A DNA stretch of 64,000 bases from Setophaga petechia (taxonomy: Eukaryota; Chordata; Aves; Passeriformes; Parulidae): positions 124,001 to 188,000 of the forward strand of contig JANCRA010000061.1 of NCBI GenBank assembly GCA_024362935.1. Reading direction: 5' to 3'. Below, one piece after another: positions 15,983-47,230 of the stretch. Within the stretch, counting starts at the first letter, position 1. Every line of letters begins with the position of its first letter. The position numbers and the translations under genes are program-made. The notes beneath the pieces were generated by a model. The model was not told the origin of the DNA and searched no databases. It saw nothing but the letters and a program-made list of their open reading frames with translations.

Positions 15983-15984
15983 TC

Positions 15985-16002: not shown

Positions 16003-16286
16003 CTGCTCGAATCTGCAGCCCCAAAACGCATCCCAGGAACCTCGGGGAAGCTTTACAGCAGCTCTGCTTCGGCTGGAAAGGGCCCTGATCTCACGGCCCT
16101 CCAGAGAGACTTGGGATTTAACCCGCAAAAAGCCTCGACGACAGCACTGCGCTTCTGGAAAATACAGTTCCTTTCTAGGATCTAATTTTTCCAGGGGAAA
16201 ATAGGGTAGCTTTCTACTGCCCAAGAAAGTCCTATTTCAGTGAAGACACAAGCCTGCCTGACCAACATTGCAACAGCTTCGATTCC

Positions 16287-16772: not shown

Positions 16773-16809
16773 TCGGCAGGACTTGGTTCTGTGCGATTTA
16801 CATCTAAAT

Positions 16810-21800: not shown

Positions 21801-22475
21801 ACCTTTTCTGGAGCGGTCTATGCTTCTGCCCACACAGGAGAGTCATCTAATGATGCCATTAAGCACCTTTTACAGGCTTTTTCTTTCATGGGCATCCCCA
21901 AGGAGCTGAAAACTGATAATGGCCCTGCCTATAAATCCAAGGAATTCGGGAGCTTCCTGCAGCAATGGGGAGTAGAGCATAAAACCGGCATCCCCTACTC
22001 CCCTACAGGTCAAGCCATCGTGGAAAGGACTCACTGCACTATTAAGAGAGTCCTGGAACAACAACAACAGGTTCTGAAAGTAGAACCCCTCCACATCCGG
22101 TTGTCCAGGGCATTATTCACGATAAATTTTCTGAATTGTTCCTTTGACAGCCTGAACCCGCCTATCCTGCGCCACTTTGGGGGGAGCAGTCACTTGAAGC
22201 TAAAAGAAAAGCCTCCAGTTTTAGTAAAAGACCCTGAGACTTGGAAAACGGTGGGACCTTACAACTTAGTCACTTGGGGATGTGGATACGCCTGTGTGTC
22301 CACCCCCTCTGGGTTAAAATGGGTTCCCTCCAAGTGGGTAAAGCCCTATGTTCCCAAAGTCTCAGAGAAATCTACAGAAGTGCCCCAGGTTGCTAACGCT
22401 GCCTGGAGAAGAAAACGCCACACGCGTTCTCTGGAGGAAATTCCATTAAAGCCTCCTATCTGGAACAGCTTGTAA
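18759..22475 (+). CDS. pol: ERV dUTPase-like/protease/reverse transcriptase/RNase H/integrase (Pro-Pol, intact)
   Basis: Open without interruption from 18759 (entered by -1 frameshift at about 18804-18810) to TAA 22473-22475. In order: a degenerate dUTPase-like segment (FLPKGQIVAQAIPV, about 19257-19298) lies before the protease. The aspartic protease has LVDTGAD with catalytic Asp at 19431, and GRDLM near its end. The reverse transcriptase has YMDD at 20244-20255. RNase H has TDAS (Asp 21147), ELAAV and TDSAY. The integrase has a His/His/CPNC zinc domain and the D,D(35)E triad: Asp 21744, Asp 21915, Glu 22023. Its C-terminus reads GPYNLVTWG and WVPSKWVKP, as in betaretroviral integrases. Protease and pol share one frame, so a single frameshift suffices, unlike classic betaretroviruses with two. 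All catalytic residues that I can place are present. Confidence 0.93.
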   Translation, partial: HGREITNTPRKSTTTKKLKCKRQPAQRADTKRAGQGNVKTKSNQARGNVTVSKSEADASKITSAHPVLNVKQNSLCYNSGDPVLTTYSVNEPYRLQLTESLQLKDTDWHFVSVNPEQNGTWHRIHCKYIIVGDTKHTPHEIEIAPGMTTSDPEQFVLGLHCIHPPLFLPKGQIVAQAIPVPFLPETTKKQGPTVARVQAIGTHKPKLWCNVSGGDESKRIEMLVDTGADCTVIPVRDWPAHWPLQDITGHIQGVGGIQLAKQSRNIVQIEGPNGQMANIRPFVLDYSEPLLGRDLMAQWGVTINIPDSPQDFCTAAIEQQRLTQKLKWKTDNPVQVRQWPLSKQKIKALEELVEEQLKKGHIVETMSPWNSPVFVIQKADKKRWRLLHDLRQINNVIEDMGSPQPGMPSPTMLPQDWKLAVIDIKDCFFHIPLHPDDAPRFAFSVPTINMEAPMKRYHWTVLPQGLKVSPAICQWYVSSLLSPVRAAAEKAIIYHYMDDILVCAPNDDLLTHVLDLTIDALIVAGFELQEKKIQKMPPWKYLGLEIGNRTIVPQKLEINPNIKTLADVHKLCGSLNWVRPWLGLTNEDIAPLFNLLKGGEDPGAPRSITPEARKALEKVQIAMSTRQAHRCRPDLPFKLIILGKLPHLHGIIFQWEEKHTPKAKGTPKKSQDKRDPLLIIEWVFLSHKRPKRMTKPQELVAELIRKARTRIRELAGCDFKCIHIPTELKSGQNSMQILEQLLRENEVLQFALDSYSGQISVHRPAHKMFEQEVQFILKLRSALSKRPLKKALTVFTDASGRSHKSVMTWKDPQTQQWETDIAEVEGSPQVAELAAVVRAFERFSEPFNLITDSAYVAGVVSRADQATLQEVSNITLFELLSKLVKLVTRREQLFYVMHVRSHTDLPGFIAEGNRRADALAAPAVMATLPNVFEQAKISHQLFHQNAPGLVRLFNITREQAKAIVDTCPNCQQHALPALTAGANPRGLNSCELWQTDVTHVQSFGRQKYVHVSVDTFSGAVYASAHTGESSNDAIKHLLQAFSFMGIPKELKTDNGPAYKSKEFGSFLQQWGVEHKTGIPYSPTGQAIVERTHCTIKRVLEQQQQVLKVEPLHIRLSRALFTINFLNCSFDSLNPPILRHFGGSSHLKLKEKPPVLVKDPETWKTVGPYNLVTWGCGYACVSTPSGLKWVPSKWVKPYVPKVSEKSTEVPQVANAAWRRKRHTRSLEEIPLKPPIWNSL
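18804..18860 (+). promoter_or_regulatory. -1 ribosomal frameshift signal
   Basis: The heptamer A AAA AAC at 18804-18810 ends just before the gag stop and is in the gag frame, the classic -1 slippery site. An 8-bp stem follows, GCCTGCTC (18827-18834) with GAGCAGGC (18853-18860). The loop GCGCGC (18836-18841) could pair with GCGCGC at 18891-18896 as a pseudoknot. The pol frame is exactly -1 relative to gag and is open across the site. The 16-nt spacer is longer than usual. Confidence 0.85.
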
Positions 22476-22476
22476 T

Positions 22477-22991
22477 ATGTTTAAGTTTTTTTGCACCAGT
22501 TTAGATCCCACGGTTCGTGTGTAGTCTCGAGACGCCATAAGACCGAGCCTGCTCCTCATCCTACTCGTGATCACCCCACCAGCAATCTCCTGCATAGTCC
22601 CTCAGCTCAAAGCACGTATAGACTACCTTGGCAAAAAACCTCAGACATCAAGAGAGAAACTGACAACTGGCTGAGTGGACTGTTCAAAGGCTGGGGACTC
22701 TCGGGCTAGTTGGGATCTATTCTGAAAACTGTAATTTCAGGATTGTTTATATTAATTATCATTGTTGTAGTTGTTAGCATTGTTTTTGGACTAATCAAGC
22801 GCATGGTTCTCAAGTTAATTTCAAGCTCATCTCCCCCTCCTGAAGTTTACCATTTAGAAACCCTTAGTACTCCATTAAATAACATAAAACCCTCAGTGGA
22901 AAACACTGAACCTCCTACAGAGGAGGAACTAATTTACCAACCCTGGTTTGGCGAGCACTCTACACCACAAGCCCCGTTTTCTTCTTTTTAA
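22477..22991 (+). pseudogene. env: ERV env remnant (membrane-spanning end only)
   Basis: Only about 515 nt separate the pol stop from the polypurine tract, far too short for env. Frame 22491-22991 reads a short Ser/Pro-rich stretch, then DNWLSGLFKGWG, which resembles the membrane-proximal end of a retroviral transmembrane subunit. A TAG follows at 22707-22709, and after it comes a strongly hydrophobic segment (about 20 residues) with a cytoplasmic tail ending PFSSF. The surface subunit and fusion domain are deleted, so no functional envelope can be made. Confidence 0.75.
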
Positions 22992-22993
22992 AC

Positions 22994-23008
22994 AAAACTA
23001 GGGGGAGA
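22994..23008 (+). promoter_or_regulatory. Polypurine tract
   Basis: AAAACTAGGGGGAGA immediately precedes the 3' LTR, as expected for the plus-strand primer. Confidence 0.85.
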
Positions 23009-23512
23009 TGTTGCAGTGTTACGCAACTCTCTCTCCTGCCCCCTCCCCCTTTTTCCTCCCACCTAGCTGCCTATCAATCAAATCTACCTGAGACATCCCC
23101 TGTCATCTGATTGGCTTTTACCTGTCCTTCCCCACCCCTAATCCGAGGCTTGAAAAAGACAGAGACCATGTGGCTTCGCGCTCGGTTGCCCCTCGGTTTT
23201 CCACTAGAGAGGTTCTCCCCAGGGGGATCCTAGAACCACCACAGGGACCCCTTATGTATCTATTAAACCTGGACTAAACTTACAACAGAGCCTGCTTCTT
23301 CTCTTCACTGACGCTGTAAGCTTCCCTGCCAAAGGTAACTGAGTTCCTTTCCTGCTTGGACTCCCCAAGAGCTCGTGTGCTGCATTCCATAACTAGCCAT
23401 AGGCTCCTCTGTGGGAAATAACTACAGCTGTAGCCTTCGGCCCGGGAGCGAGAGCCAGGGGAGCCAGCAGGACACACCCGGATACCACCAAAAGGGATTT
23501 ATAAAAACTATA
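23009..23512 (+). repeat. 3' LTR of the young ERV
   Basis: Identical by eye to 15479-15982 over all 504 bases. It ends TATA and is followed directly by the target duplicate CGTACA. Confidence 0.93.
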
Positions 23513-25870: not shown

Positions 25871-27204
25871 TCATCTGTCCACTGGGACGGATCGCGACAA
25901 CCCCTTGACTCACCTCAGGCATATCTCCGATTCCCTTTCCCCCAGCAGCCCAGAGCTGCATTGCACAGCGCTTGCTGTGTGCCAGAGAGCACAAAGCAGG
26001 CTGGCCTGGTGGGCCTGAATATTCCTGCCAAACACTCTGCATCTCACACCTTTGCTCTGGCTCAGTGCAGACTTGCAGCATTGCAGGCGCTTCCTCCCAG
26101 AGCTGCATGAGGCGCTGGCTCCTGCAGATGTGCCCTGCCAAGCTGTCCCTGCCCCACGCTGGCCTGGCTTCCCCTGGCACGAGTGCCAGGCCTGAAGGAG
26201 GCTGCCCTGTGCTCCAGCCTGCCCAGCAGCCCGGCTCCCTGCCCTGGTGCCCGCAGTGCTGCACACACTGCCGACCTTCGCCAGGAGTTGCAGGGCAGCC
26301 GGCAGAAGAGGAGGAATCCTCAGCCAGCCCAGCGGCCCTCGGCTGCCCTTGGCCTCTCTCTGCTCCTGGGCACACTGCAGACGGCCAATGCCTCCAGGCT
26401 GGGCTGTGCCCAGCACGGCTCCGCTTCCCCTCGGGAGCAGCCAGCTGCCACCTGGGCTCTGAGAGCGGAGGATTCACCCGCCGCCAGGAACAGGCACCCA
26501 GGGCCCGGCTGCTGCCTCTTGCAGCTCCAAGGGCCTCCTTCCAGCCTGCCTCTGCTGGGGCTCAGCCTGCTCCAGCCTCTACCGGGGCTCTGCCGGGGTT
26601 CCAGCCCGGCCAAGGCTGGGCCCGCTCTCACCTCACAGGCGCTGACAGCTCTGCACCACAGGAGACCTTCCCGAGCACCCTCTCTGATTTTTCTGCTTTC
26701 TCACTTGAGCAATGCTCTCCTTCTGCCAAAGCGATTGCACTTAGGGACACAAATCCAAGTGGCAGGAGCCCAAAAGCTCTCCAGTCACAGCTCAATGCCT
26801 GAATCTGCATAGGATGTCTTAGCTGCCCCACTCCTCCACTGGTTTTTCCTGAAAATGCCATTGCCCTTTCTGCCTCAACTAGAAATACCACAGCTGTGCC
26901 ATAAGCAGCCAGTGGGTCATATTCCAAAGGCAGTGTGGTCTGGAGAGGATGAATAGCCTTCCTCACTTTCAAACCGTACAAAAGAAGCCATAAATGTGAC
27001 TTAGCACCAATAAAAAACAACTGGTAATTCAGAAGGAAATGTTGACTTTTCTGAAGGGGTTAGAGAAGGAGGAAAATCTTCCACATGAGTTGATGTTTCA
27101 GAAACTTTATTTCATTAAAACCCTAATCTATAATCCTATGCTACAAAAGTCTTCAACAACCCTACTCTACAATCCTACTCTAAATTGTTATGTTCTCATC
27201 TCCT
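25871..27204. other. GC-rich unassigned sequence
   Basis: Long open frames occur on both strands between about 25860 and 27020, as expected from the GC-rich composition. None has a recognisable domain, and no splice-phase-consistent exon chain was found. The last exon of the kinase gene was sought here without success. Confidence 0.4.
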
Positions 27205-27350
27205 AGTGTTAGGGTAAGGGTTAGGTTTAGGCTTAGGCTTAGGGCAAGGGTTAGGTTTAGGGTTGGGGTTAGGGATAGGGTAAGGATTAGGGTTAGGGTT
27301 TGGGTTTGGCTTGGCATTTAAGGTTAGGGTTAGGGTTGAGGGTTAGGATT
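27205..27350 (+). repeat. Interstitial telomere-like repeat
   Basis: About 145 bp of TTAGGG repeats with variants (TTAGGT, TTAGGC, TAAGGG, TTTGGG) on the plus strand. It is degenerate, so old, and lies well inside the window. Confidence 0.9.
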
Positions 27351-27434
27351 CTTCTTCTTCTTGACTGAGTTGATGAGTGGTGCCAGGATGAATGCTGGCT
27401 TGGCTGAAGTTACAAATGGATGCTGTCCACCGGG

Positions 27435-27458
27435 AAAAAAAAAAAAAAAAAAAAAAAA
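27435..27458 (+). repeat. Poly(A) tract
   Basis: About 24 uninterrupted A residues. The region 27460-28230 beyond it shows no gene that I recognise. Confidence 0.9.
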
Positions 27459-28239
27459 CAAAATTAAAGAACAGTGAACCATTACTTTCCAAGCTCTGTG
27501 ATTCAGAGACTCAATCAGGATACCTCTAGTTCCTAGAAAGACCCAGAAAAAGGAGCAATGGGACCATCTGCTCCCCAGTCATCCCCAATGTACAGGACCT
27601 TGCCATCCCAGGCAAATGTGGCCCAGAATTCCACCCATCTGTTTATTGCATTGCCTTCATCTTGCTGGGATTTTTGCCCTGCCTGTGCTCTAGAAATGGT
27701 TATTTCTGTCCCTGGCGTTTCTTCCTTTCAGAAAACTTCAATGGCTCACATCGGTCCCTGCCTTTGTAAGACAGGCACTGTGCTGATTTCCACAGGGAGA
27801 CACAGCAGTGTCTACCTTTCCATGCCCTGCCCCTCGTGTGCTAAGTGACACCTTCCTTCCCAGCAGGGCCAGCCCAGTGGCACTGGGTCCTGCAGTTCCC
27901 TCTCTGCCACACAACCTGGCAGTAACCCTGGCGCAGTTCTCGTCTGCTTGAGCGTGCCAGGCAGCAGATGGGGCTGGGACAAGTCCCTCCCAGCTGTCCC
28001 TGTTTGCGTGGCAGAAAGCTCTAAGGGTGGGCTGGGGGCTCAAACCAGGGCCCTTAGAGGCTCACAGTGAGCCCCCCCACAGCCCCTCCTGCCCACAGCC
28101 AAATCTCTGACCCCTAGGCCGGGATTGGCTTCCTTGGGTTCCCCCACCACCATTTCATGTCTCTGTACCCTGCATTGCTCTACTTCAATTCTTTTGCCAT
28201 TAGATAAAACTGAACACCCCACCAAATTACAAAAGAGGG

Positions 28240-28690
28240 TGACAGAAACAGTCAGAGCACAGAGCACCTCTCCTCTGAGGAAATGCGGAGAGAGGTGGAA
28301 TTATTCAGCTTTGTGAAGAACAGGCCCCAGGGAGACTTTATTGCCACTTTCCAAGACTTCAGAGTGGCTTTGAAGAAAGCGGGGGACAGCTTTTTTAACA
28401 GAGCCAGTTCCAATAGGATGTGGGTGAATATTTTTAAACACAAAGGAGATCTAATCAGAGTAGGTCTAAGGAAGAACTTGCTTACTCGGAGCAGTGTGTG
28501 ACCCTGGCACAGGTTGGCCCAAGAGCTTGTAGGTGCCCCATCCCTGCAACCATTCCAGGTGAGATGGCAAAGTGCTCTGAGCAACGTGATCTCTTCAAAG
28601 ATGTCCCTGCTCATTGCAGGACACTTGGACCAGAGGACATTTACAGGACCCTGCCAGCCCAGCCCAGTCTAGGATTCCTCACTGTTCTCA
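28240..28690 (+). mobile_element. CR1 LINE 3' fragment (degenerate)
   Basis: Plus-strand sequence follows the CR1 3' region: GAGGTGGAATTATTCAGC, CTGGCACAGGTTGGCCCAAG, GTGCCCCATCCCTGCAACC. It lies just past the last kinase exon found on the other strand. Confidence 0.6.
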
Positions 28691-28757
28691 TTTGAAGAGC
28701 AGCAAGAGTGGAGGTGAGGAGGAAGGGGGCTCAGCTGATGCCTTGGACTTGAGGAGC

Positions 28758-31700
28758 TCATCCCTCAGAGCCTGTTTCACCTGCAGCCCCTTCCCATTTT
28801 ACCTGCAGGAGCTCCTTGGCAGACCAGCGCTGCTCCTCGTCTCTCTGCAGGCAGCAGCTCAGGAAGTGACGCAGGCAAGGCGAGAATCGGTGGGGCTGCC
28901 GCAGCTGTGGGGTTCCTACTGTGGCTATCAGGTGTGTAGCCTGGAGAAAAAGGAGACACCAGGCTCCACCTGCTGCTTTCACATCTCTAAGTGCTCTCCC
29001 ATATCCCTTTGTTTAACCTTTGTTCTTCAGTGGCACTTTCTGCCCTGGCAGAGACCCAGAGATGATTTTCCTTTACCAACCAAAAACCCAAACCCTGATA
29101 CAGCCATAGCTTTTCCACCATCACGCAGATCTTGCCTTGGCAGCTATTTCATTGACTGACCTAGTTAGTGGGAACTACATCAGCAAAAGCACATTTGCTT
29201 CTCTGAGGATTCAAACCAGCTTGAGAGGCTTTTTGGAAGAGGGACTTTGCTATACGAACTAATTTCAAGGGTTACTACATGAAAGGCATCTCTGCAGTGC
29301 TTGTTGGTCCCTTAAGCACAGCTGCCATAGAACAAAACTCATCAAGCTTTTTGTCGTGTTCTTGAAAAGAATGGGAATTGGAAGATAAGAATGGAAATGC
29401 ATCAGTTAATCCCCAAGTAAGCAAACAAACATTTACAATCTCATCTTCAAAACAGACACATTAAGATGCCTGCACAAATGTGCTGGGATGAAAATGCCTG
29501 CTTGGGCACACAGGAGCCACCTGCAGCTCTGTCTCTCAGCAGTCTGAAAATTTCAGCTTCCCATTTTGCAGCAAAAGAAAAATTGTCATGGTCAGAAGAA
29601 GGACACGTTCCATCCCTATGGTCACCCTTTGCTCATTTGGCTACTCAAGTCAATGCATTAACGGTGGGCCCATCCCTGAAAGTGCCAAGAAACAAACAGG
29701 AGGTTTTAGCAGGCTCTCCACATCACCAGGCTCTGTCTTGGTGACACGGAGAATGTGCCTTGGACTAGGAGAGAAACATGGTCAGTGAGTGTTTCAGCAG
29801 CACTGCACAAGAAGCAGAAGAGACTCGGTGGCCTTTAAACCCTCATGCCCAGGTTTCAGGCATGTTTCATGCCAGTGAGAAGAAACTGCACGGTGGGTTA
29901 GGTTCCTCTCTAAAGAGCACAGTTTTAGAAACTTTGCTGGGTTTGGCTTTCCTTCCTTTGTTTCTGGAAAGATAACAGCAGTTCTAAGGTGTTTGTTTCC
30001 TGTTACTGGGGCCATCTGCACAGACAAAAGAACTGGAACCACTTATAACCCCAAGGAAGGTGTTGCCTGAGAAAAGAGTTTGCCTGGAGTTTGTTTGCAT
30101 GTGGTAAGGCCTGAGTTCCCCCACTGATGCAACCAAAACTACAGCAGGTGGTGATGTGTTGCAAGGACATTTTTAGGAGGGGACCTTGGCGGAAGTAGTT
30201 CCAGCAGATGGCAATGGAATTTTGTCCAATGGCATGCAGGACGTGGGACAGATGAGAAAGACAGTGTGATCAGTGCGTATTTGCTTCTTACCGTGCCAGG
30301 ACTTTGGTTCCAGTAAGGAGGTTCTTGTTCCATCATTTCAATCCCCACAATTCCAAAAGACCATATGTCCACTTTGGGGCCATATGGTTGACCTGTCACC
30401 ACTTGAGGCGCCATCCACCAAGGAGTCCCGGGTAGTGTGCATCGTCTGCTCTGCTCAGGGGTGAGCTGAGCAGAGAGGCCAAAATCAGCTGAGGAGAAAG
30501 CAAAATACTGGCTTTATTTGAATTCTGTGCAATTAGGAAAGCAAGCAAAAGAATTCTCCAGGAGAAGTTTGCAAATGTGCTGTTGAATCTCCTGGCATTG
30601 GTGACTTTTAAAATCCTCCATTTTTTACACTGTCTCCAGCAGTGGCTTTTGTTCTTTGGAAGCTTTAGACTTGTAGCTGCCTCCCTCTGGAAGGGACACA
30701 CACAGAGCAAGGCCACTCTTGACTGCTTGTTCCTTGTCATTCCTCTGTGCATATTGCAACTGTGCCCACGGATCACAGTGGGTGTCCCTGCACTGCCACC
30801 AGCACCATTTTTGGGGAGCTGGCTGTCACTCAAAGCAGCCCCACACCCACATCCCTGGAATGCTGCACCTGACCAAGAATATACTGACCCAGCTTGACAG
30901 AGCCGTCGGTTCTGAGAAGGATGTTGTCGCTCTTCACATCTCGATGGATCACATGGTTTGAGTGAAGAAAATAAAGCCCTTGCAGGCACTGAGAGAGAAA
31001 ACAGAGGAGGGCAAAAATGAGTGATGTGATTTCCTCCCACAAGAAAGGAAAGAAAGAATCTAAAAGATTCCTTCTCCAGGGAAATAGGGAGTAATGGCAG
31101 AAGACAGGGCCACTGAGAGGAAGAGTTGCTGCTCCAACACTTGCAGAGCAGGACCTTTCTGAGGAAAGGCAACGTCAGCTTTTGAAAGAGCAGCCGCACC
31201 TGCTCTTGTAGACTGTGCCCTGCAAACCAGCCAGGATGACTCCTGCTGCAGAGGATGTGCTCAGAAGCAAAGAGCATTTTGGCTGTACTCCTATCCTTTT
31301 CAGCTGAGGACTGAGAGAAATGAGTCTCTCTCTTTTTTCTTTGCTGTTTGTTTCAAATCCTGCCACCAGCACCTTTGTTTTCACAGGCAAGGAATGCAGT
31401 GAAGACAGACTCCAGGCAAACATTTAGAGAGGCAAGGTGGAGAACAGCAAATATAAATACATAAGGCAGAGCGAGAATACAACAGCAGGAGATAAGAGTG
31501 CTGGCACTGAGTACAGGGAGTGCAGGGGCACTGGCAGGCCTTTCACTTGAGATGCTTTTACTTGCCCATAGCACACCAGCAACACGGAAACAAAGCTTGG
31601 CACATGAAACTTCTCCTGAACTGAGCCCCTGTTTGGCAGACAAGACCAAGCCCTTGGAAAAACAGATGGGATTGCTGACCTCCCGACTGATGGCTGCTGT

Positions 31701-34700
31701 CTCATCTTCAGACAGGCAGGTCTTGCTGGTGACATCGCTCAGGGCGCCTCCATCCATGTACTCCATAACCAGCAAGAATTCCTCGCCCAGAAAGTAGCTG
31801 AAAGAAGGAAACAAGGGCATGGCTAGGTTGATTTTTTGCTTCCAGGTTTCTTATTTCCAGATGCCTTTGTGACAAGGGCAGAGTCAAAAGAATAGGGATT
31901 CCCTCTTGGCTGTGCATTGTTTGCAACCTATGCAGTCTCAAAGAGAAAGGCACAGCTGTGAAAAAGGAGATGTCTTAGATTGCCAGCAAGCAAAAAGTGC
32001 AGTTTAGAAACAGCCCAGATCAAAAACCTGTCAGGCATGGTGTTTCTGGAAAGAAGCACCTAGTTTTCCTGGCATGCACAGCAATGGCAAAGAGGGGCAA
32101 CAATCCAAGGGAAATCCACTTTAGGATGGTTCATCAGCGCTTAAGAAACTTGAAAAAATTAATCCCGAAAAAATGTGCAGGCAGTGAACTTCGAGGCTAT
32201 TGACTTAGGAAGATACCGCTGATCCAGGTTTTGAATAATTTTGGAATAATTTTCAAACTAGGTGTGCCAGGGAAGACTCACGCAGACAAGATGCACTCTC
32301 TTCTCATCCATTGGAGATGAGTAGAGAAATATGAATAAATAAAAATTAACAGCTCTACTTTCTGCCACTGACCAAAGTGGGTTTTTAACCTCTCATGATT
32401 TCTGTATGTAAACACACATCCATGGAATAAGACCATGATCTCTCACCTGTCTAAATAATTCACAACATTGGGACTCCTATACCTCTTCATGATCATGATT
32501 TCATTAAGGGTTAGTTCCTTCCTCCTCAGTCCTTGAAGATTTATTTTCTTTATGGCCACCTAAAATGACATTGAAAATCAGTGACTTGAGAAGTTGGTGG
32601 CACGAGACCACAATGCAATGGAGTGAGTGATTTTGCAATGCCACAGCTGAGCTGTGCCAAACTGTCTTGTGATTCAGCACTGCAGTAATTAGGAACTGAC
32701 ATTCCACCAGCCCATTTCTCTGCTCCCTTGGGAGCCAGTTACAGGACACGTGGGGCCACTGACATTTTGCTTTGTCCACTTGGTAACAGCGGTGTCTCAG
32801 CTATCACCCACAAAGCTCTGACCACAATCTCTGCTGCTTTGTTTGGGAATCAGAAGAAGTAATCCATGCCTTAATACTCTGTGGATACATCTTAGGCTAT
32901 GGGCAGGGCTTAGGGCTTTTAGGGACGCCTTGCAGATCTCTCCCTACGTGCAGTTCCCAAGTGCAGCACTGCAGGTGGCTAAGGAACTACCAGTAACTTT
33001 CAGATGGATTTGCTGGCAGCCAGAAATGAGAATTCAAGACTCTGAAGCTGTAGCCCCAGAGAGCAGTGAGGTGCTCGAAGGCACCACCTTTGTTTTAGCA
33101 ATGGAGAGCGAGTGAGCGCGTCCTTGTCTGAAAGGAACCGCTGCCCTCCGTGCCTTCCTTCCAGCAGCTGAGGAGGACAAAGTCCCAAATGTATTTTGCA
33201 GGCTGGCACCAGTCTGTGCTTCTCGTGCCTTTTCAGCACAGCTCTGCCCAAAGCTCCAGCCACAGCTCACACCAGAGGGGAAAGCCCCTCAAGAGCAGCA
33301 GAGTTTGCAGGGCCTGTTGACATTTACCTCTCCTCCTGTGGCAGTGTCGAGTGCTCTGATCACGTGTCCAAAACTCCTAGAAGCAAAAGAGAAGCAGAGA
33401 AAGGAGAAGGCATGTAGATCTTGCAGTGAAAGCCAGCCCACACAGGAGATGTGTGCTGTAAATGCCTAAAACCTGCGGGATGCAGGAGGGCTCTGCCAGA
33501 AGGCAGATGATGCATTTTCCTCTCAAGTGCGTGGGCACTGGGCCTTTTCCTGAAGTGCTGGGGTTCAACTTCTAAAGGGAATTTAGTCTTTCCTCTTGGG
33601 TTTCACTTTCTAAACGGTGTGGTTCCTGTCCTGACCACAGATTGTTTCCTTCTGCAAACTAGGGGAAAGAATTGTTCCTGGGAACTGTTTCTCACAGTAT
33701 TGATAGGGTGTAGATTGCTCTTTCAGGCAAGCAACTTTCTTCTTTTCTCATTAGTGTGCCAGTATGATTTTGAGACATACAAAAATGCTGAAGAAATTAA
33801 CACAGAGCTGTCCCACACTTGAGAGACAAGGAGACCTTCCAGGTCCTGTTCCTTGATGTAGGCAAGACCTCGGCAGCAAGGAGTATCTCTAACAATGCCT
33901 TCTGAGCCCACTCACAAATTCTGAGCAGCATTGAGAGATGAAACAGTCTATCCTTACTGTGTGAACATGTTTGTAGCAGGCCTGACTTCACACTGGATAG
34001 ACATTCCAGCAGAAAAACACCTGGCCTGTGGTTTTGTAGAGGTAACTGCTGTTGGACTCACCCACTGCCAATATATACCAGATCCGTGTATTTCATCACA
34101 GGATTTTCAGTGGAGTTCACCATTCTCTCTGAGGGAAACAAAATGCAAGATGCTGACTTGAAAGCAGAGATCCCAGCTTGCAGGAGATACAAAAGGCAGC
34201 CCCACTGTCTGGGGCTCTGAGCCCTTTGTGCTCAGCTGGGTAACAACAACCACAACAGCAACAGGACAGGCAGCCCTGCAGTGCAGATGGCTGGCACAGA
34301 GACTGATTTTGTACAGTCCTTTGAAGAGTTCTCTTGACAGGAAATAAAGCACAGAGAGATGGATTTCCAGGAGGGGAGGACATCTCGCCCACCTTTCAGC
34401 AGTTTGCCAAAAGAATGCCTTTCCATTTGTAAACCAGAGCAGCTGATGCTAGAGCCAATCCCAACAGGGCTTTAAGCATCAGGGCCCTGACCTGTTTATG
34501 AGCAGGCTGAGCTCAAAGATGCCCCTCTCCCAGCTAAGGAGGGCTCCAGCCTCTGCAGTCCCTCCAGCCCTCAGGGACAGGGCAGCTAGCACAACAAGGC
34601 TGGCAAAGCCCAAGCATGAGCACTGACAAGCAGTGGGAAGATGCCACAGCCAGCCTGAGCCCCGTACAAGCTGTTGCCCCCATTCAGGACACAACAGGAT

Positions 34701-37700
34701 GGGCTTTGAGATCAGCCACACCGAGGTGCAGATCAGTGCCCTTTTTGTCCCAACAGGTGATGGTAGACACAGAATCCACTGGGCTCTGGTCTCAGCCCCA
34801 GCAGGTCTTCTCTGAGAGCACAGCACTGGCAGCTGTTATGGGCAAGAAGCAGATTCATTGGCTTGTGCTGCAGAATCACAAAGGACTTGATGTGTTTTCC
34901 TAGAGACTGATCTGAGCAGGGCTTGGGCCAATGGGTAGGATTGTAACAGTCATGGGAAAGAGTGGAAATTGGGTATGGAAAAGTGCCATGGATCTGAGGA
35001 ATATACCATGGCTGAGCTGGAGGCTCTCTCCTGAGAAATGCCTGCAGTACACTTTTATCTGATCACACCACTTGGATATGTCTCTTGGACACATCTTGAT
35101 AAGCATAGAACTAGAAGATTAAGTAAAGGCTGTTATAAAGTATCGCTTTTTTCTTTGGGGGCACATGGAAAGCATCTCTTGATCTCTATTTGTCCTGTAA
35201 CCTGATGTTCTTTCAAAGCAGGTATTATTGACAAACGATAACACGCTCTATTGACAAAAAGATAACATTCTCATGAAAATAAACTACAGATGTAGTAGTG
35301 GTAAAAGGAACAGTCATAAAAATGATATCCGTAAGACATGGGGCGGAAGGGCTCTTTCAGGATGGAGGAAAACCAACTCCACCAAAAAAGCCCCACAAAC
35401 CATCAACCTAAAAATCCCAAAACACAATAAAAACCCGACAGAAACAAAAAAACAAAAGGCCTCCACAAAAAAAAAAGAACACAAAAACCACCCCCCCCCT
35501 CAAAAAAAAAAAAAAAAAAAAGAAAAATACCCATCCAAAGCCAGTCCATTTCTGTCAAGTTTTTTTTCTCTGATGACTGGTTGGAGGTCAGGAGTCTAAA
35601 GAGAATTTAGGAAGCTAAGAATTCTGTTCACTGTGGCCAATACACACAGGACTTGCCTAGATCATTTGCTAGGTCACAGCCTTCTGCTGATCCAAGAACA
35701 ATCCCTGCTTCAGCCTTTAGCAGAGCGGGAAGCTCAGGCAAAGCCAAACAAGTCCAAGGTGCCCTCAGAGGCAGCAGGAACGCCCAGAGCGCTCTCTCGC
35801 TGCCTCGGAGCACAGCACTTCCTCTGGGGAGTCCTGAATGGCCTGTGACACCAAACTCAGGAGAAGCATTTGGTACAGCTCTGCTGACACCCACACACAA
35901 CACACTGTCCCTCAGACAAGAAACACACCAGACGTACCCAGCATCTCCAGGTACTTCTCCTCAGTCTGCTGTTCCAGGGAGATGAAGGAACTGCCCAAGC
36001 TGGATATCCCAGGTTTGACATGGTGTCCTTGAGGTGATGCTGCTGCGGCAGCAGGTTCAGAGCCCATGATGTGCTGGACCTGGAGCATTTCTGGTGGGCA
36101 CTGTTCCTGTGCCTCATGGCAAACCTGGGGATCTTCCTTGCCAGAAATTTGCTGAAAGTCTTCGCAGGCTGCCCGGTGAGATGTCAACACTCGCACCTCA
36201 AATCACACAGAACAAAGCAGTCAGACACTACAGCTTGTCCCTGTCAGCCAGGAGTCATCGACTGTGAGGAAAGGCAAAGAACAGATTGACAAGGGATACA
36301 GACAGCGTGTTCCAATCCTCCATCTGGGTCACCACTTTCCACTGCAAAAACACCTCAAGAAACAAGGAGAGCAGGAACAGGCCAGCAGGAATCAGTTTGG
36401 ATGACTGCTGGCCAGAAGGCCAAAGGACAAGTTTCACTGTGCAGGGCAGCAGTTGAGATGCAGCACACCAGGAAATGTCCTTCAGAGTGACTATGATACA
36501 CACGAGAGCAGGATGGCACTCAGAGGCATGGCCCCACTCTCTGCTGCTGTGCACTGGCAAGGCAAGAAGGGCAGAAACCACCAGTTTGGTGACTGCAGTG
36601 ACTGCATCCCTCTTTCACTCACTTGCTTTTGCAGAGACTGACAGAAGCGATTAAGTTTCTCCCCGAAGATTTTCATTTTTTCCTCCAGCCTCTTCTGCCT
36701 TGCCTTGAACATACTGTGAGCTATCTGAAGCTCTGCATCCAGCTGTTCCTTCATGTTCTCTAAAAGACAAAAGAGAGGAGGTTTCATGACTGGAGTGGCT
36801 GCCACACTTTCACTCACCTGGTTTTGTTGATCACTCCTCTGCTGATCGAGATTCTCCTCTTGAATTCTTCTCATGTCATCCTTGTTCCTCCTCTTCACTG
36901 CCATGAGGGCACTCTGAGCTTCGGGCAGCTCTGCTTGTGGCTCTGCCTTGATCTTCTGTACACACAAATGCAGAGCAAGTGACTGGGAGCTGCCATCAAG
37001 CTCAGCTTCTTTCCTCTTGCAGCCTCAAAATCACATTTATTCAGCCACTTCTTTCTGCTTCCCTCTCCACATCTCCTTCCAATGTAACCCTCCTGTCCCA
37101 GGACTGTTCTCTGTAGATTCCAAGGTTCTGTGCTTGCAGTGTCTGTGGGACTCCTGGCCTCCTCAGTCCCAAGAGCTCTGGTTTGTGCCCCTCTTCCTGC
37201 CCTTCCCTCTGTCACCTGGCCAGTCAGGCTTACCTGGCCATTCTCCTGTGGCTCTTCCACCTGCTGCCTGAGCTGCTCTTCCTGCTCTCGGGCTGGGAAC
37301 AGCTCTCCCTGAGTCTGCCATGGCATCTCTGCTGCAGCAATCTGCTGCTGCTCTCTTTCTAGAAGCACCTGCACAGAAAGCAAGAGAAGATTGGTTTCAA
37401 CTTCCCATAGGAGCTTTGTGGGCCAAGACTCAAAGACTGCTGGGCTCACACGTTCCCAAAGCACTGTGCTGCTGCTCTGCTGGGTCATTCTGTGTTCAAG
37501 GGGAGGCACAGATTCCAAAGTGACCCTGGCCCTACAGTCAGGGGCCATCTGGGACTGAAGCTCCAAGAGCCCCTCAGGCAGCTGACAGGGAAGGTGTGGC
37601 ATTTCTCAAGGCTCTGCTGAGGGCCTCCCTCTGCTTCTGCCATGTCCTGTTTGTCTTTCAGTAGTGACTGACACCCCACCCTGTCCCACAGCTCCATCCT

Positions 37701-38375
37701 GGCTCTGCAGGTGGCTTCCTGGGTGAGCTCACTCTTTGTGAGGGACACTTCTGCAGTTCAAGTTCATTTCAGGCCTGCACCAGCATTCCTGCCCTTCTGA
37801 CATTCACACTCTTGTTAGAAAACCTGGTCATTCAGGAGATGAGGATGTGTGCAAAGAGCCTCAGATGAAGGTTACACAGCCTCTATGGCCACCTCAGTAC
37901 ATGGAGGAGGACCAAAGTGTTTCTTCTGCCTCTTTTGTCAACAGAGTAATCTGACCAGCAGAAACAGAGACTCTCCTAAGGTCCCATTAACGAATGCACT
38001 TACACAGCCCTGGGGATGCCAGTGAAGGAAACCATGTGTCATGTAATGCATGGCATGTGTGACCAGAGTCACCAAACTCCACCTAAACATGGAATTGTTC
38101 CACCTCCCTAGGACAGGCAGAAACTTAAGGAATTAACTGGAGACTTTAGGGCACAAGAGGCTGGAGGAGGAAAGCAACTCTGAGGGGGAAAAACCACCAT
38201 ATCTGGAGGGGGAAACGTCTCTGCCTACTCAGAAGTGGTCGAGGGAATGTATCTCTAATCCTCTCATAAGAGGGATGCTTTAGGTGAGCTTTGCACCTCC
38301 AACTGCCTTGGACCAGAGCCAGGAAGATTCAATTATGTAAATATTACATAGATCGATAGATACATTGGACAGATT

Positions 38376-38424
<49 letters not shown>

Positions 38425-41349
38425 GAAGAAGGACAGAGAGATAGATCTCACTACTATGATCTCCCTTTACTGTCCTCTCTGTTGCTGCACACATCAACAC
38501 TTGTTAGCCCTTGCCCTGATCAGCAGCAACGCTGAGATTATATTCCTGTTGCTCAATAAACCACAATTTTGGGGTATCTGAAGCATGCACATCCTTATGG
38601 AAAAAGGAATCAGACCCCGAGCATTGCACTGAGAAATGCACTCTTTGAGATCAAAGTCATTTTTAAGGGCAAACTGCATTACATACTGCTCCTGGCAGGA
38701 CTCCAACATCCAGCATCCTCAGTCAGCAACAGCAAAGCTCTGGCTGCTCCAAAACTTGCAGCTCTGCCTTGCACTAAAGACAGTACCACACACAATTGAC
38801 ACTTACAGCTTGAGAATATCCAGGCTCTGGTGTGAGCACTGATGGAGGCTGGCGCTCATCCACCTCACTTTGCTCCTCTCTGGCTTCTTCTCCAGGAGCA
38901 GCAGGAGCCAGGGGAGAGACGGCTCTTGGTTCAGGCATCTGTGAGAAGAGAGGAGAATGAAGAACAGGCCATTTCCTATCAAGAAGAACATATTTCTTTT
39001 CACATCTACCACTACACATTCTATGGAAAAATCATAACATTTCATAGTGACAGAGTGGTTCTAAGTCACAGCCACCAAATGAAAATTGGCCAATTCAACA
39101 GCACTCTAGATGGATGTGAAGTTGATTTGCCTCCTTGACTGCTATCAGCAAGCAAGGCTGTCTCGGCAAAACAGAGCTTTTTGTGCTTGAAAGCACTGAA
39201 ATGGTAAACTAGGAAAGCAACAGCAACACCTTTGCTACTGCTGCTGAAGACATAGTAAACAAAAACTGGATCACAATCCCATCCAGGGCTGGAAAAGTGC
39301 AGGAAACGTTGAGCAGAAGCATCTTAGCTTGCTGGAAAAAGAGGAAAATGAACAGGCCTTCTCCTCCTAGGAAAACAACGAGCCAACAAACCACAAGATA
39401 AAAGCGTCACCCACTCCAGTGTCAAAAGTCCTTGTATGCAGTGAGGGCATACTTGGCAGGGAAAGAGCCCTGATGCTGAGTGCTGTCATGTAGGGATCGA
39501 TGGATGGAAGTTTGCCTGAAGGTCCCTCCAGAGCCTCCCATTATCCAGGTCAAAGCTCCCTCAGCACCTCCTCACTGACCTTGTGCTGCACCCCCTGGCC
39601 CAGCTCCCCTGTCCTTCTGTGCACACGCTGCAGCCCCTCCATGACTTTCTGCTTGCCAGGGGCCCACAAGTGCACACAGCGCTCCAGCCGTGGCCGCAGC
39701 GCTGCCCAGCACAGGGCCACGCTCACTGCCCTGCTCCTGCTGCCCCACTGTTGCTGACACAGGCCACCATGCCCTTGGCCTTCTTGGCCACCTGGCCACA
39801 CGCTGCCTCATCTTCAGCTGCTCAAGGCCGCCAGCCCTGTGGCCTTTTGGCCCACACAGCTCCCCAGCCACAAAGTTGCTCTTTTGTCTTAAATTGCAGC
39901 CTCCACCATTTCAAGAGGTCCTTCCTTTTCCACAACCACATCTTATATGTAGATATTATAAGATTTTATAGGAATAGAATTCTAAGGTAATCTTAATTTA
40001 AATGGTGTAATACAACTCTACAGGAATTTGCTCTTAGTTAAATACTCCACCCTATGTGCTCTAGGAAACAACGTTGTCTTTGAAAAACTGGATTTGTAGT
40101 TCTTCAAAGCTCTGAGATGGAAATTAAAAAATTACCTCTTTTTCCTTTGATTTTTTTTTGTTGCTGTCATGAAAAAAGATTTTCTGCCAACCTTCCTAAC
40201 TGGCCCTCTATATTCTACTGCCACTGGCCAAGCTCACATCTTCCTCTACAATGCTTAAACACCAGGACCATGAAATGTTCCTTTCTCACTCACCTCAGGA
40301 TCAGCACCGCTGAACACACGCCTCAGGTGACCTGTAGTGGGCAGGGGGAAATGAGCCAGATGCTGTGAGAAAACCGCCTGGGCTGCTGAATCCCACAGAA
40401 CAAGTCAACCCAAACCGAGATGATTTCCCGTTTCACAACATCTCTCCAGGAGACACATTTCACTCACACAGCCAGCAAGAGATCAGGTCAATAATCTTTC
40501 TTTTGCCTACACTTTGGCCTGTTTTGCCAGTAAATGACTAAAACATGACCAAGAAAATGCAGGTTTTTTTTTTTTTTTCAACACTCAAGGCTCCTGTTCT
40601 ACCAAAGACCTAAAACAGCTTCTATAATTCTCTTTTTCAGGTACTTTTTTTTAAAATCAGTTGCATGCAGCAATTCTCATTAACTTGCTGGAAATGCTTG
40701 CCCAGAAAAGCTTCCCCAAAATCCTCCTGAGCTGTGGCAGTTCTTTGTGAAACGGTACAGCAGCAGCTCCAAGGTTCAGGAGCAGACACTCACTTCTTTG
40801 GAGTTTGCATTTCATTGCAAAGGGAAGATCACTATTTTAGCCCTCAGCAGAGGATCAAGTTAGACAGTCAGATCCTTTCTAGAGAAACAGTAGAAAGAAT
40901 GAAACTCTCCCTGAATTCTGGAAACAACTGCAGAGTTTTTAGAAGGCCTTCCAAGAAGGTCTGCCAGTCTACATTTTCAAAGGTGTCTTGCTTGTCCCAG
41001 AAAACTGAGGAAAGGACAGATTCTGCTGCCACAAACTCTCCCGTGGAGGGAACAGAAGCCCTGCAGGTTCCCTTGCAAATACTGCCCCTGTGGCTACAGA
41101 CACCCCCTATTGAGCTGAATGTCTTGACAGGAGCTTTACCAAAACAGTGGCAACCTAATGCTCTTTCTGTTTCAAAATCAGACACTCAGCCACTAAAAAA
41201 GAGCAGGGAGAAATACAAAAGCCTTGTTAGGTTACACCTTAACCTAAGCAGAAGGGAAACCTCTACTTACGTGTGAAGTGTGTAACGTAATAGATGGAAT
41301 AAGCAACGCCATATGCAGCAAAAGCTGCAGTGGCCAAATGGTGAAACAT
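28758..41349 (-). CDS. PAK3L: PAK3-like kinase fused to membrane/coiled-coil N-terminus (15 exons)
   Basis: Exons (minus strand): 41271-41349, 40294-40331, 38807-38938, 37450-37581, 37234-37368, 36818-36955, 36623-36757, 35938-36196, 34062-34128, 33328-33376, 32447-32559, 31680-31797, 30889-30988, 30292-30488, 28803-28940. Every junction has AG/GT and the phases agree throughout, giving 1830 nt or 610 codons. Residues about 5-26 are hydrophobic ([14 protein letters not shown] start). Residues about 128-263 are Glu/Gln/Lys-rich coiled coil. The kinase starts at about 363: GSGSFGHV loop, Lys392, alpha-C Glu408, HRD Asp482, DFG 500-502, activation-loop Thr516. The APE motif reads APQ (527). The PAK GTPase-binding (CRIB) region is absent. 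The usual last exon was not found; reading past the weak donor GTAAAA ends at a stop at 28758-28760. The kinase part is certain; that all exons form one gene is inferred from phase and order. Confidence 0.75.
28803..34128 (-). other. Kinase-domain exons of the PAK3-like gene
   Basis: Seven exons encode the catalytic domain. 34062-34128 ends [11 protein letters not shown]. 33328-33376 is [15 protein letters not shown]. 32447-32559 is [10 protein letters not shown]...NVVNYLD. 31680-31797 is [19 protein letters not shown]. 30889-30988 is [17 protein letters not shown]. 30292-30488 has [19 protein letters not shown] and [11 protein letters not shown]. 28803-28940 has [10 protein letters not shown] and SAKELLQ. 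These match PAK1-3 group subdomains I to XI in order. Donors at 31680 and 30889 are GTCAGC and GTCAGT, weaker than consensus. Confidence 0.9.
35450..35527. repeat. A-rich low-complexity tract
   Basis: Runs of A interrupted by a C8-9 run, in the large intron between the coiled-coil and kinase exons. The rest of that intron (34129-35937) shows no other feature. Confidence 0.8.
38374..38424 (+). repeat. (GATA)n microsatellite
   Basis: About 12 perfect GATA units with imperfect ones on each side, within an intron of the kinase gene. Confidence 0.95.
39540..39870 (-). mobile_element. CR1-like fragment
   Basis: Plus-strand text such as GCAGCCCCTCCATGACTTTCT and GCGCTCCAGCCGTGGCC resembles antisense CR1 ORF2/3' sequence. 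It is diverged, so the call is tentative. Confidence 0.4.
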
Positions 41350-42160: not shown

Positions 42161-43839
42161 ATCACTACACATTTGAACATCCGCATAACATCTATTTCTT
42201 AATTGTCAGAGTCAACCATTACATTACTGATCTAGAACACACAGAACCAGGAGAGAAAGCACTGTTGGCATCACAGCTGAAATCCTCCCTAACAAATCTC
42301 CCCACATATTTGCACATTTATTGGACGTGCCCAGGCCTCTGGTGCATGTACATCTCTGCCTTTATTCCCCTTTGGCAGCAGTCGAACTGGCAGCACCTGC
42401 CCGCCTGCAGCAGCTGCTCCAGGCTGGGAACGCCACCGGCGGTGCTGATTTCCAGAGGCTTCTGTGTGCCAGGAGAAGCCAAGGCAGGAGCGGGTTGAAC
42501 GGTGCTGGCGCTGCTGCTGCTGCTGCTCTGTGCCAGAGAGCCCCGGCTGGGCAGGGCACAGTGCCCACTGCGCTGCAGGCTCTTTCTCCTGCCACAGCTG
42601 GGCACACCTGGGAACAAGGCATGACAACTTGTGGGCAAACCAAGGGGTTTCTGGGACTGCACTGCTCTGCACACACCCAGGACACCTGCAGCACAGAATT
42701 TTAATCCTCAAACAGGGGAACCAGAGGGAAACAGCTGGAAAAGATTTCATTTGAACCTTTCTTACTGGTTCAATGGAAGTCTTCAAAATGAACATTACCA
42801 AGCAGGGCCCAATCCCTGCTGCCAGCTCAGGGTTAGAAAGGAGGCAATACTTGATTCAGTGCTGGGTGTGGTGGGGAATCACTTCCCTAATACGTGCACA
42901 CCCAGCAATCTCACTTACTAGTTTGTATCCATGGATCTAAGACATATTCAATACTTTGCTGAAACTCACAGGTAAATATTCCCCCAAATGGTTTGATTTT
43001 CTGATTGATACTTATTGACTTATTGACACTTAAATCACTTCTCAAAATCTACTGACATGAGAATATGAGTGTCCTGCAGGTCCCTGCTGGTCATGGTCAC
43101 AGGTTCGGGAGGAGACCCATGCACACAATAACCCAGGGCAAAACTGGGCTTGCAAAGCAAATTTATTCTATTAGTTGCAGTAGCAAAAAAGACATACCCA
43201 CCCCTGGATTCCTAAAAATCTGCTGAGCAGTGGAAGGAGATGGAGCGTGGTGCTCGGCAGCAGGGGCAGGTAGGCAGTGCACTTTCAGGACATCCCCTGG
43301 ATCAAAACGCTGTGCATCTCATCCTTCTCACCCTTATGGCTCAGAACCAGGCCTTGTATCTCCTGTTCAGGGGTGGAATTTCCCAGTTACGGCATCAGCT
43401 CACACATGGCTGGCATTTGAGATGAGGGCAATGAATCAAGGATTTAAAAGAACTGGAAGAGTTAAAATTTTAGCAAGATTTAGTTAGGGGGAAAGAGTAG
43501 AGCAAGAAGAGTAGAAATAATAAGGGACAGTTAATTCTCAGCAGACAAGGTAGTTAAGGCTAGGGTAATATATCACTTGCCTGTCTTTACTATGTTTAAA
43601 GAAGCAGGATGAGATGGATGGATGGATTTCTTTGTGACAAACAAGAGGACTGTAGCCTGCACCTGGGCCCCAAAACTTCAGCTGTAGCCAAGGGGTATGA
43701 AAGCCTGCCAACAGCTCATAAGTAAAGAGGTCAAACTGAGGAAGATGTCTTGGCCTTCATCAGAAGGAGACCATTCCCCACTTTCAAACCCACCAACCCA
43801 TTTGAAGTGAAAGACTGCAGAAACGTGAAGGAACTTTGG
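42161..43839. other. Unassigned intergenic sequence
   Basis: It contains a short CTG run near 42517 and GC-rich sequence with open frames on both strands (42320-42700). No exon or element is recognised. Confidence 0.35.
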
Positions 43840-45059: not shown

Positions 45060-45540
45060 TACACAGCTCAAAAATTGGCCACATTTCTGATGGACTGGGG
45101 TGTTTGCCACACTTTTGGAATTCCATATTCCCACACAGCTCAGGCACTTGTTGAAAACCCACTAGGCACTCTCTTAAACCCATTCTAGATCAACAAAAGG
45201 AAGAGTGGCCCAAGCAACACCTCTGATAAGGTTGAGCAAAGCTTTAGATGTCTTTATATTTTGAAGAGCTCATTTGCAGGACCTAATCCTCCAACTTTTG
45301 GACACTTTTCAAATAGCGCACTGGCAAAACTGAAAGAAAATCCTTCAGTTTTGTTTAGAAACCTTGAGTTAGGACAAATTGAAGGACCATTTCCACTAAT
45401 CACTTGGAGCAAAGGGTGTCCTTGTGTTTGCACAGGTGCCGGACCTAAGTGGGTCCCCACGAAGGAGGCGAAACCGTCTCCTACACAAGAGCGCACCGAC
45501 AATTCCACCAGCAGGGAAATGAGCACGCAGACATGAGCCG
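45060..45540 (+). pseudogene. pol: Alpharetrovirus-like integrase C-terminus remnant
   Basis: Broken frames at 45060-45260 (RLSKALDVFIF-like) lead into 45261-45536, which reads PPTFGHFSNSALAKLKENP, then IEGPFPLITWSKGCPCV and GPKWVPTKEAKP. This is the layout of an integrase catalytic-domain end and C-terminal domain. Upstream gag and most of pol are missing. Stops and frame changes make it non-functional. Confidence 0.65.
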
Positions 45541-45834
45541 CACGGAGAAACTACGGATCATGCCAGACGATCCCTGTTCAACCTGGGAAAGCTACAAATC
45601 TTGAGTTTGATGTTGATTTTTGGACTGTGAAAATGGTTTGTATCATAGAGCTCTTTCAGCAAAAGCATGGTGTCCATTGTGTTCAAAAGAATTCTAAGAT
45701 ATCCAAATTTGTAAAAATTGAAGGTTGGAGGGACAGTTTAGTGCCCTATAGTTGGCCAGTGTCTGAACAAGTGCTAAAAGATTTGCTTGAGAACTGAAAT
45801 AGATGGGGAAGCTTTTGCCAAAAAGCAGCTGAAC

Positions 45835-46130
45835 AGGAACATGGAGTTTGATCAGATGATATACTGGTACTTGTTGGTTTTGCTTGCTTGCTTTTGCAGT
45901 GCATATATGCCTGGGGATCAACCAAAAATGAATGTTTGCCTTGCTTTAGCCAAGTCAGCAGGTTCAGACACCATGTGTTTGACTAGTTTGATCCCAGACA
46001 AATCCTTTGTGACCTGTTTGGTCACTGTGCCAGTGCCAGCCAAGAGGTGGCCAATACCCAACCATGACAAATATTGGTGTGAGGCTGCCAATGAGACCAG
46101 TCCATAACCAGCTGGCATCATTGGACCCCT
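45835..46130 (+). pseudogene. env: Alpharetrovirus-like Env surface subunit remnant
   Basis: 45838-46107 holds a hydrophobic signal-like stretch (YWYLLVLLACFCSAYM) and then MNVCLALAKSAGSDTMCLTS and TCLVTVP, resembling the N-terminus of an alpharetroviral surface glycoprotein. A stop at 46105-46107 ends it, and the sequence to 46560 is degraded. Confidence 0.6.
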
Positions 46131-46561
46131 GATCTTCTTAAAGCACCTTCTGAACCTCAAGAATTGGAATTGTTGCTTTATTTCTAATAGAATTTTGTGC
46201 TGAGTTTCAGTACCAGGGAGATCCACAGTTAAGTGTTACTCCGCATCATCCTGAGGACAGATACTCAAGTTTGTGGTGCAATTGTACTACCCAGTGTCCC
46301 CTAAGCGTGAAAATGCTGACAAGTAGATGACCTAGATGAGTCCCCACGACAAGGAGCAACAGAATATTGGCTCCTTTGTGGAGACAGAGCCTGGCAGGGC
46401 ATTCCCTCAAAAATTAAAGATGGCCCATGTAGCATCAGACAACTGACTGTGATAGCAGCTATTGTTGAAAAAGCCATCAAGAGAAAACACAGAGAAAAAA
46501 GATTTGCCCCTCATTATGATGAAAATTGTAATAGCAATTTCAGACTCCAGGGCCCTGCAAA

Positions 46562-47230
46562 ATGAGTTACATCCACTTTATTTCTACATCAACTTTATTT
46601 CTACATCAACTTGCCTTGAGGGATGCATTGAAACCATTATACCGATTGGGGTGTTGGCTGAAGAAAGAAGACAGTGCTACTTCCATTGCAATTAGGGACA
46701 TGATGACTGATGTTGGTGTAGTCAGACATGCAACCTTAAAGAACAGAGCAGCAATTGATTTTCTTTTACTGGCACATGGACATGGTTGTGAGGAATTTGA
46801 AGCATTGTGTTCCATGAACCTGTCTGATCACTCTGAAATCATCCATAAAAGCATACAAAAGCTGAAAGATTTGACAGCTCCAATTAAAGAAGATGGTGGG
46901 TCATGGTCAGATGATTTGTTCCAAGGATGGAGCTTTGCATCTTGGCTAAGGGAACTTTGTAAAATAGGTCTCTATGTACTGGGTGTTTTGGTAGTGATAC
47001 TAGTAGTAATACCTTGCATACTTCAGTGTGTACGACAAATGATGGACAAAACTCTCAAAGAAGTTTTTATCACACGAGAGAGAGAGGTAGGAAATGGATT
47101 CACAGAGAGTTCTCAAAATCTCACACAAATGGTGGATGAAGGTATAGACATGGAGGATGGTTTTGAATTAAGACCTTGGAACAGACAAGACTTTTTTGGA
47201 ACAATGACTAGTAATTGCTATCAGACATGA
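46562..47230 (+). pseudogene. env: Alpharetrovirus-like Env transmembrane subunit, frame still open
   Basis: 222 codons without a stop. It contains LKNRAAIDFLLLAHGHGC, an immunosuppressive-like/heptad segment followed by a Cys-x6-Cys loop in which Ser replaces the second Cys of the CX6CC motif. NLSDHSE follows, then a membrane-proximal WSFASWL, a long hydrophobic anchor (GLYVLGVLVVILVVIPCIL) and a tail of about 65 residues. The start is not a natural Env start, because the surface subunit upstream is broken. Family assignment is good; the protein as a whole is not functional as an envelope. Confidence 0.75.

Follow-up and report, generated by a model that had tools for sequence, protein, structure and literature searches.

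The minus strand of the 64,000-nt stretch of Setophaga petechia DNA analysed here (the window) carries, at 27330-41349, what is probably one copy of the known songbird PAK3L family. Its front exons, which have so far turned up in oscines alone, are predicted to be spliced to a linker of PAK origin that leads into a complete kinase domain. Because the CRIB domain is absent, the product is likely to be independent of Rac and Cdc42. PAK is the textbook example of a kinase that its own N-terminus keeps inactive until Rac or Cdc42 releases it. Songbirds have tens to hundreds of PAK-derived copies lacking this GTPase switch, according to the accessible text of PMC13060935 and the counts given below. 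With the replacement exons named, and with the lineages that have them and the parts under selection identified, the function of PAK3L becomes testable.

Gene model and kinase domain

Fifteen exons join without a stop codon, and all internal borders are AG/GT. Exon 1 (41271-41349) contains the start codon and a moderately hydrophobic, conserved segment followed by Arg and His residues (MFHHLATAAFAAYGVAYSIYYVTHFTR, then HLRR). Exon 2 (40294-40331) encodes RHLRRVFSGADPE. Exon 3 (38807-38938) is a Pro/Glu-rich unit of 44 residues, present once here and running from phase 0 to phase 0, as does the Gln/Glu-rich exon 4 (37234-37368). Exons 5 and 6 (36818-36955 and 36623-36757; together 36623-36955) lie on either side of a 60-nt in-frame segment, 36758-36817, and the best heptad pattern is found in exon 6. 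Exon 7 (35938-36196) is a composite of 259 nt, its 5' part belonging to the songbird-only front and its 3' part to the PAK-derived linker. The kinase starts in exon 8 (34062-34128; ERMVNSTENPVMKYTDLVYIGSG) and continues through the glycine loop in exon 9 (33328-33376), the VAIK lysine and alpha-C glutamate in exon 10 (32447-32559), the hinge region in exon 11 (31680-31797) and the HRD catalytic loop in exon 12 (30889-30988). Exon 13 (30292-30488) carries DFG, the activation-loop Thr472 and the APE motif as APQ, and exon 14 (28803-28940) encodes the C-lobe. The true C-terminus lies in exon 15 (27330-27422), where HPFVTSAKPAFILAPLINSVKKKK matches the PAK C-terminus and the protein ends in HPFVTSAKPAFILAPLINSVKKKKNPNPQP before the stop codon.

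The initial annotation had also described fifteen minus-strand exons, which were said to end at 28758 and to amount to exactly 610 codons. The exons from 41271-41349 down to 28803-28940 do join without a stop and with AG/GT borders, but the end of the gene was misplaced. Exon 14 closes at CAG/GTAAAA, with a GT donor after exon 14 and an AG before exon 15 in 11 of the 11 genome copies compared below, so that 28758-28802 is intron read-through and an end at 28758 is ruled out; the PAK homology is carried on by 27330-27422, which aligns with the C-terminus of PAK2 and PAK3. The predicted protein has 596 residues when 36758-36817 is spliced out and 616 when it is retained, instead of 610. This segment has GTGAGT at its start and TTTTAGAG at its end, and is in frame and of constant length in 11/11 copies. 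In one alignment 11 of the 17 relatives include it as coding sequence, the aligned proteins without read-through being P0046, P0050, P0064, P0071, P0080 and P0112. The pooled dN/dS of the segment between copies is 3.63, so its codons give no indication of constraint; from its sequence it may be either a short intron or coding.

At the 3' end of the gene, a degenerate TTAGGG-like array (27204-27347) overlaps the stop codon of exon 15 and contributes the final codons together with this stop. The array is present in 9 of the 11 copies; it is absent from the other two, c1064 and c2249, which end in KKRK. An AATAAA on the minus strand (27106-27111) follows about 220 nt past the stop codon. At the other end, minus-strand sequences at 42399-42606, 48771-48932 and 49477-49566 match the annotated first exons of relatives P0037 and P0028 and are possible alternative first exons of the kinase gene.

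The Pfam search identified Pkinase at residues 319-570 (596-residue numbering; E 4.5e-70) as the sole strong domain, which bears out the earlier call of a PAK-type kinase. The earlier report of a missing CRIB also holds, as CRIB/PBD (PF00786) was not detected in the predicted protein by Pfam even at E<=1, and we infer from the sequence that the activity of the protein is GTPase-independent. Similarity to PAK spans residue 278 into exon 15, and the nearest solved structures are PAK2 (9lbg, E 9.3e-109), PAK3 (6fd3, 1.7e-108) and PAK1 (4zji, 4.8e-108). The predicted protein thus resembles the group I PAKs (PAK1-3) in its kinase domain (E about 1e-108 to PAK2 and PAK3), activation-loop Thr, linker start and C-terminus; it differs from them in having no CRIB/PBD, an unrelated front and Gln483 in place of the APE glutamate. 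A tree of 98 kinase rows sets the PAK1-3 group apart from the other 95 with support of 1.0; the node of the 95 non-PAK1-3 rows has a value of 0.433 after rerooting. The window copy shares 168 sites with PAK1, 168 with PAK2 and 169 with PAK3, which hardly favours PAK3, and sequence alone does not single out the parent; the assignment to PAK3 comes from earlier publications cited in the accessible text of PMC13060935.

It is quite unlikely, in our judgement, that the protein serves mainly as a scaffold or decoy, a kinase fold that binds PAK substrates or partners and for which catalysis is dispensable. The six catalytic positions examined (K, E, HRD Asp, Asn, DFG Asp and DFG Gly) are all as in PAK1-3 in the window copy, which also retains Thr472 as in PAK1-3, and the six are intact in 75 of 97 relatives (those with all six positions aligned, among 120 listed of 163). 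At least one of them is missing in the remaining 22/97, however, and the substitutions found elsewhere in the domain would suit such a role: HRD Arg is replaced by Gln in 25/105 relatives and the T-loop Thr by Ser in 75/105. Ser is usual at this position, and the Thr is also kept by only 7 of the 75 with all six catalytic residues. The altered APE glutamate of the window copy points the same way; the same change to Gln was seen in 1/106 relatives.

The join between front and kinase

As the initial annotation had it, exon 7 is entered in phase 0 and left in phase 1. The junction of 35938-36196 with 34062-34128 had been taken as the key point of fusion, and its precise fit to the kinase frame as unlikely for unrelated genes. 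This candidate is ruled out, since PAK-derived sequence already begins upstream, within exon 7: the PAK similarity reaches back into this exon (QTEEKYLEML compared with TDEEILEKL), and the linker part starts at about residue 264 (MGSEPAAAA...TEEKYLEML). The junction is an intron within the PAK-derived part, and the fit of the frame is therefore expected.

In relatives the linker opens like IYTGSV.EPAAAA. When the linker start of a swallow protein, P0071 (KRIYTRSVMQPAAAVA), was compared with passerine PAK2 (KSIYTRSVIDPIPAPA), the score was reached by 0 of 300 shuffles. Among 14 such segments, which were chosen by a motif, 5 were at or below 11/300 (P0071 with 0 and four more with 2 to 11), and the other 9 were weak, with 19 to 192 of 300 shuffles reaching the score; the window copy gave 36/300. 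An IYT-type start occurs in 47 of 182 relatives with differing left neighbours (EAQ, QWEE, KELQ, QNQ, EKR, PPK), and therefore looks like a splice site. Ten relatives and the window copy have direct QHIMGSEPAAAA-like text instead, which is best read as the trace of a putative deletion through which the PAK linker exon became continuous with the last exon of the front.

Residues 1-310, used as a query, matched 163 proteins. The 120 listed are all songbird-named, often as 'PAK 3-like', in agreement with the link to a songbird PAK3-like expansion drawn earlier. Exons 4-6 and four or more of kinase exons 8-14 (seven in all) were matched in 103 of the 120, and all 15 exons in 39. At the sequence level, the gene and its unusual join are therefore genuine. 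The join had been presented as a singular fusion; its recurrence in these 103 relatives and in all 11 genome copies indicates that it is a family trait and not a local accident. None of the Pfam entries of the 120 listed relatives includes PF00786, which appears, in the same Pfam column read by eye, for 118/120 PAK2-type protein rows (PAK2 wherever the name specifies which PAK).

The proposal that two adjacent genes, one coiled-coil and one kinase, have been joined on paper only is very improbable. It would account for the annotated front-only proteins (for example P0016, P0034 and P0125), for the 14 of 120 listed relatives in which kinase exons 11-13 are missing and for the other first exons with which some relatives begin. 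We rejected it because the single exon 35938-36196 holds front sequence and PAK-derived linker in 11/11 copies, because the exon 7/8 intron (34129-35937) contains no AATAAA or ATTAAA, of which there are five elsewhere in the 14-kb gene, and because both halves stand in one annotated protein in the 103 relatives just mentioned. Database PAK genes that use other upstream exons had been named in advance as evidence against the fusion. This turned out to be half the case: many annotated oscine PAK3-like proteins have the same upstream exons as the window gene, but some relatives depart from it in the first exon, and exons 1-3 were not located in six of the genome copies (below).

A profile built from 11 front halves, with which 7994 candidates sharing most words and 0.55-1.75 times the query in length were scored, found 84 proteins at E<=0.01, some of them without a kinase. 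Of these 79 are named and 5 unnamed, and all the named ones belong to what we take to be oscine genera, from crows to sparrows; the profile found no donor gene for the front exons in other animals. Front-bearing proteins go by various database names (involucrin-like, Smc-like, caldesmon-like, PAK 3-like).

Copies in the genome and selection

The DNA of exon 7 matches at least 40 places in the 1.22-Gb assembly (40 scored of 140 candidates, a lower bound that refers to exon 7 only). These are distributed over contigs C61 (27; the contig of which the window is positions 124001-188000), C43 (6), C135 (5), C52 (1) and C140 (1), the 27 on C61 being clustered in 3.45 Mb of contig. Ten copies were read over the whole gene and compared with the window copy (n=11). 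Exons 4-15 are collinear in 11/11 copies. Exons 1-3 are present in 5/11, with exon 1 of copy c627 cut by the end of the sequence taken for that copy; in the other 6/11 the roughly 5.6 kb upstream of exon 4 yielded no exons 1-3. Over the sequence covered, seven of the 11 copies have no internal stops or frameshifts, and these occur in c1704, c2101, c1064 and c2249. One acceptor of copy c845 reads AA.

Omega was computed on a tree of the intron sequences that lie between exon 7 and exon 13. Purifying selection acts on the kinase exons, in which 39 synonymous and 59 nonsynonymous changes give an omega of 0.45 (P 1.2e-4), or 0.42 (P 3.7e-4) without c1064 and c2249. For the front exons 1-7 no codon constraint was detected among the 11 copies, omega being indistinguishable from neutrality: 0.77 (P 0.20) for exons 4-6 with 18 synonymous and 58 nonsynonymous changes, 0.69 (P 0.21) for exon 7 with 10 and 24, and 1.29 for exons 1-3 with 2 and 8 (10 changes). 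Pooled pairwise dN/dS without c2249 gave the same picture: 0.41 for the kinase, 0.39 for the linker part of exon 7, 0.79 for exons 4-6 and 1.16 for exons 1-3. Unlike the codon tests, indels show constraint on front exons 4-7. The introns of the 11 copies have 63 distinct gap runs over 5107 columns; at this rate 7.0 frameshifting indels are expected in the 727 nt of exons 4-7 and none was found, and in exons 8-14 there are two, both in c2249, compared with 7.5 expected.

These results bear on the view, which we hold to be unlikely, that amplification of a repeat unit produced the copies as a by-product, their frames being young and mostly unexpressed remnants and the front decaying junk. Divergence from the window copy in the introns compared is only 0.8-4.7%, four of the 11 copies are interrupted, and purifying selection on the front exons is not significant, all of which would be expected of such remnants. 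The omega of the kinase exons and the lack of frameshifts in exons 4-7 argue against it. So does the comparison with 17 chosen oscine relatives, to which the window copy is still 58-79% identical in exons 4-6 (69-81% in the kinase), and at least seven PAK3L genes are reported to be expressed, particularly in testis, in the accessible text of PMC13060935, which cites Kong 2010.

The front exons and their possible role

The front half had been described as unrelated to PAK, and we concur: its profile matched no Pfam family beyond chance and no convincing relative in the PDB (best E 0.25). The initial annotation further ascribed to it a membrane-anchored start and a coiled coil. The 19-residue Kyte-Doolittle maximum of exon 1 is 1.18 in the window copy, and ranges from 0.81 to 1.63 in the 41 of 120 listed relatives (of 163) that have this segment (50 pattern matches, from which 9 unrelated ones were removed by eye). 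The usual cut-off for a membrane helix is 1.6, and a secure anchor is not borne out, exon 1 also not having been found in six of the 11 copies. In signal-anchored outer-membrane proteins of the TOM20 type, basic residues follow a short N-terminal segment of moderate hydrophobicity. Exon 1 of the window gene may resemble them, but its hydrophobicity is marginal and it was not found in those same six copies.

A modest heptad periodicity is seen in exon 6 and at the start of exon 7 only; there, 33 of 500 shuffles reached the score of the window copy. The same region gave 1/300 in relative P0013, 69/300 in P0046 and 84/300 in P0050. A coiled coil would fit this region only; a stretch in exon 5 shows no periodicity, all 500 of 500 shuffles reaching its score.

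Exon 3 is repeated in some relatives. By a pattern count, 8 of the 120 listed have about 4-9 units, and the phases match. In genome copy c627 (L009-L010) the exon 3 region is tandemly duplicated so that exon 3 occurs twice, apparently a recent step in the repeat growth seen among relatives.

If the gene is a PAK3L copy as we propose, a PAK gene (PAK3 according to published work) would have lost its 5' regulatory exons, and the ancestral PAK linker exon starting IYTRSV would have become spliced to new front exons. In the lineage of the window copy a deletion may then have merged the last front exon with the IYTRSV linker exon. The predicted helix of exons 6-7 could lead to self-association, in which copies would phosphorylate each other's activation loop, self-association taking the place of CRIB as the trigger of this phosphorylation. 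Hydrophobic exon 1, in those copies having one, might loosely tether the kinase to a membrane. The membrane step would be the weakest part of this mechanism, and the self-association step the next weakest. A more far-reaching version is possible but doubtful: early oscines would have swapped the PAK GTPase switch for an orphan, songbird-only module that tethers and self-associates the kinase, with a Pro/Glu exon that grows and shrinks in the manner of a repeat, and so acquired a large, fast-evolving army of GTPase-independent kinases, probably of the germline.

The PAK3L family and its loss of PAK regulatory exons are already known. The accessible text of PMC13060935, which cites Kong et al. 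2010 for PAK3L, counts 200 PAK3L copies on chromosome Z of the zebra finch. It adds that they are without the exons for the N-terminal regulatory domain and that their function has still to be worked out. The window gene is like these, as far as that text describes them, in combining a PAK-type kinase with the loss of PAK's N-terminal regulatory exons, and in its many clustered copies. Whereas the published account, in its accessible parts, tells what is missing, described here are the replacement exons, their restriction (among named proteins) to oscines, and exon 3 as a unit that can be repeated. No description of replacement front exons was found in the literature searched on PAK3L or songbird PAK3, and the front module appears to be undescribed in the searchable literature. 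In the blue tit, according to the part of PMC10172847 consulted, PAK1 is multicopy on the germline-restricted chromosome and on other chromosomes. The accessible portion of the canary genome paper (PMC4373106) reports that a PAK3 expansion was not found, yet the canary has at least two annotated members of the family, P0081 with a kinase and P0132 with the front only, which bears on how widely the family is spread.

Several repeated elements lie around the gene in the window. An endogenous retrovirus occupies 15478-23512, with long gag- and pol-like frames between two flanking repeats of 505 nt; the repeats are identical at 505/505 positions, and the insertion is therefore likely very recent. 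A second retrovirus-like remnant, at 45189-47230, has plus-strand open frames that are env-like by eye. Pieces of an ELL-type RNA polymerase II elongation factor (PF10390, E from 3e-23 to 1.8e-20) are repeated at three places, 279-683, 10837-11340 (-) and 59990-60307 (+). Two imperfect inverted repeats, 729-4827 with 54610-58796 (86%) and 12943-14454 with 61637-63145 (95%), flank the kinase gene like the arms of a palindrome.
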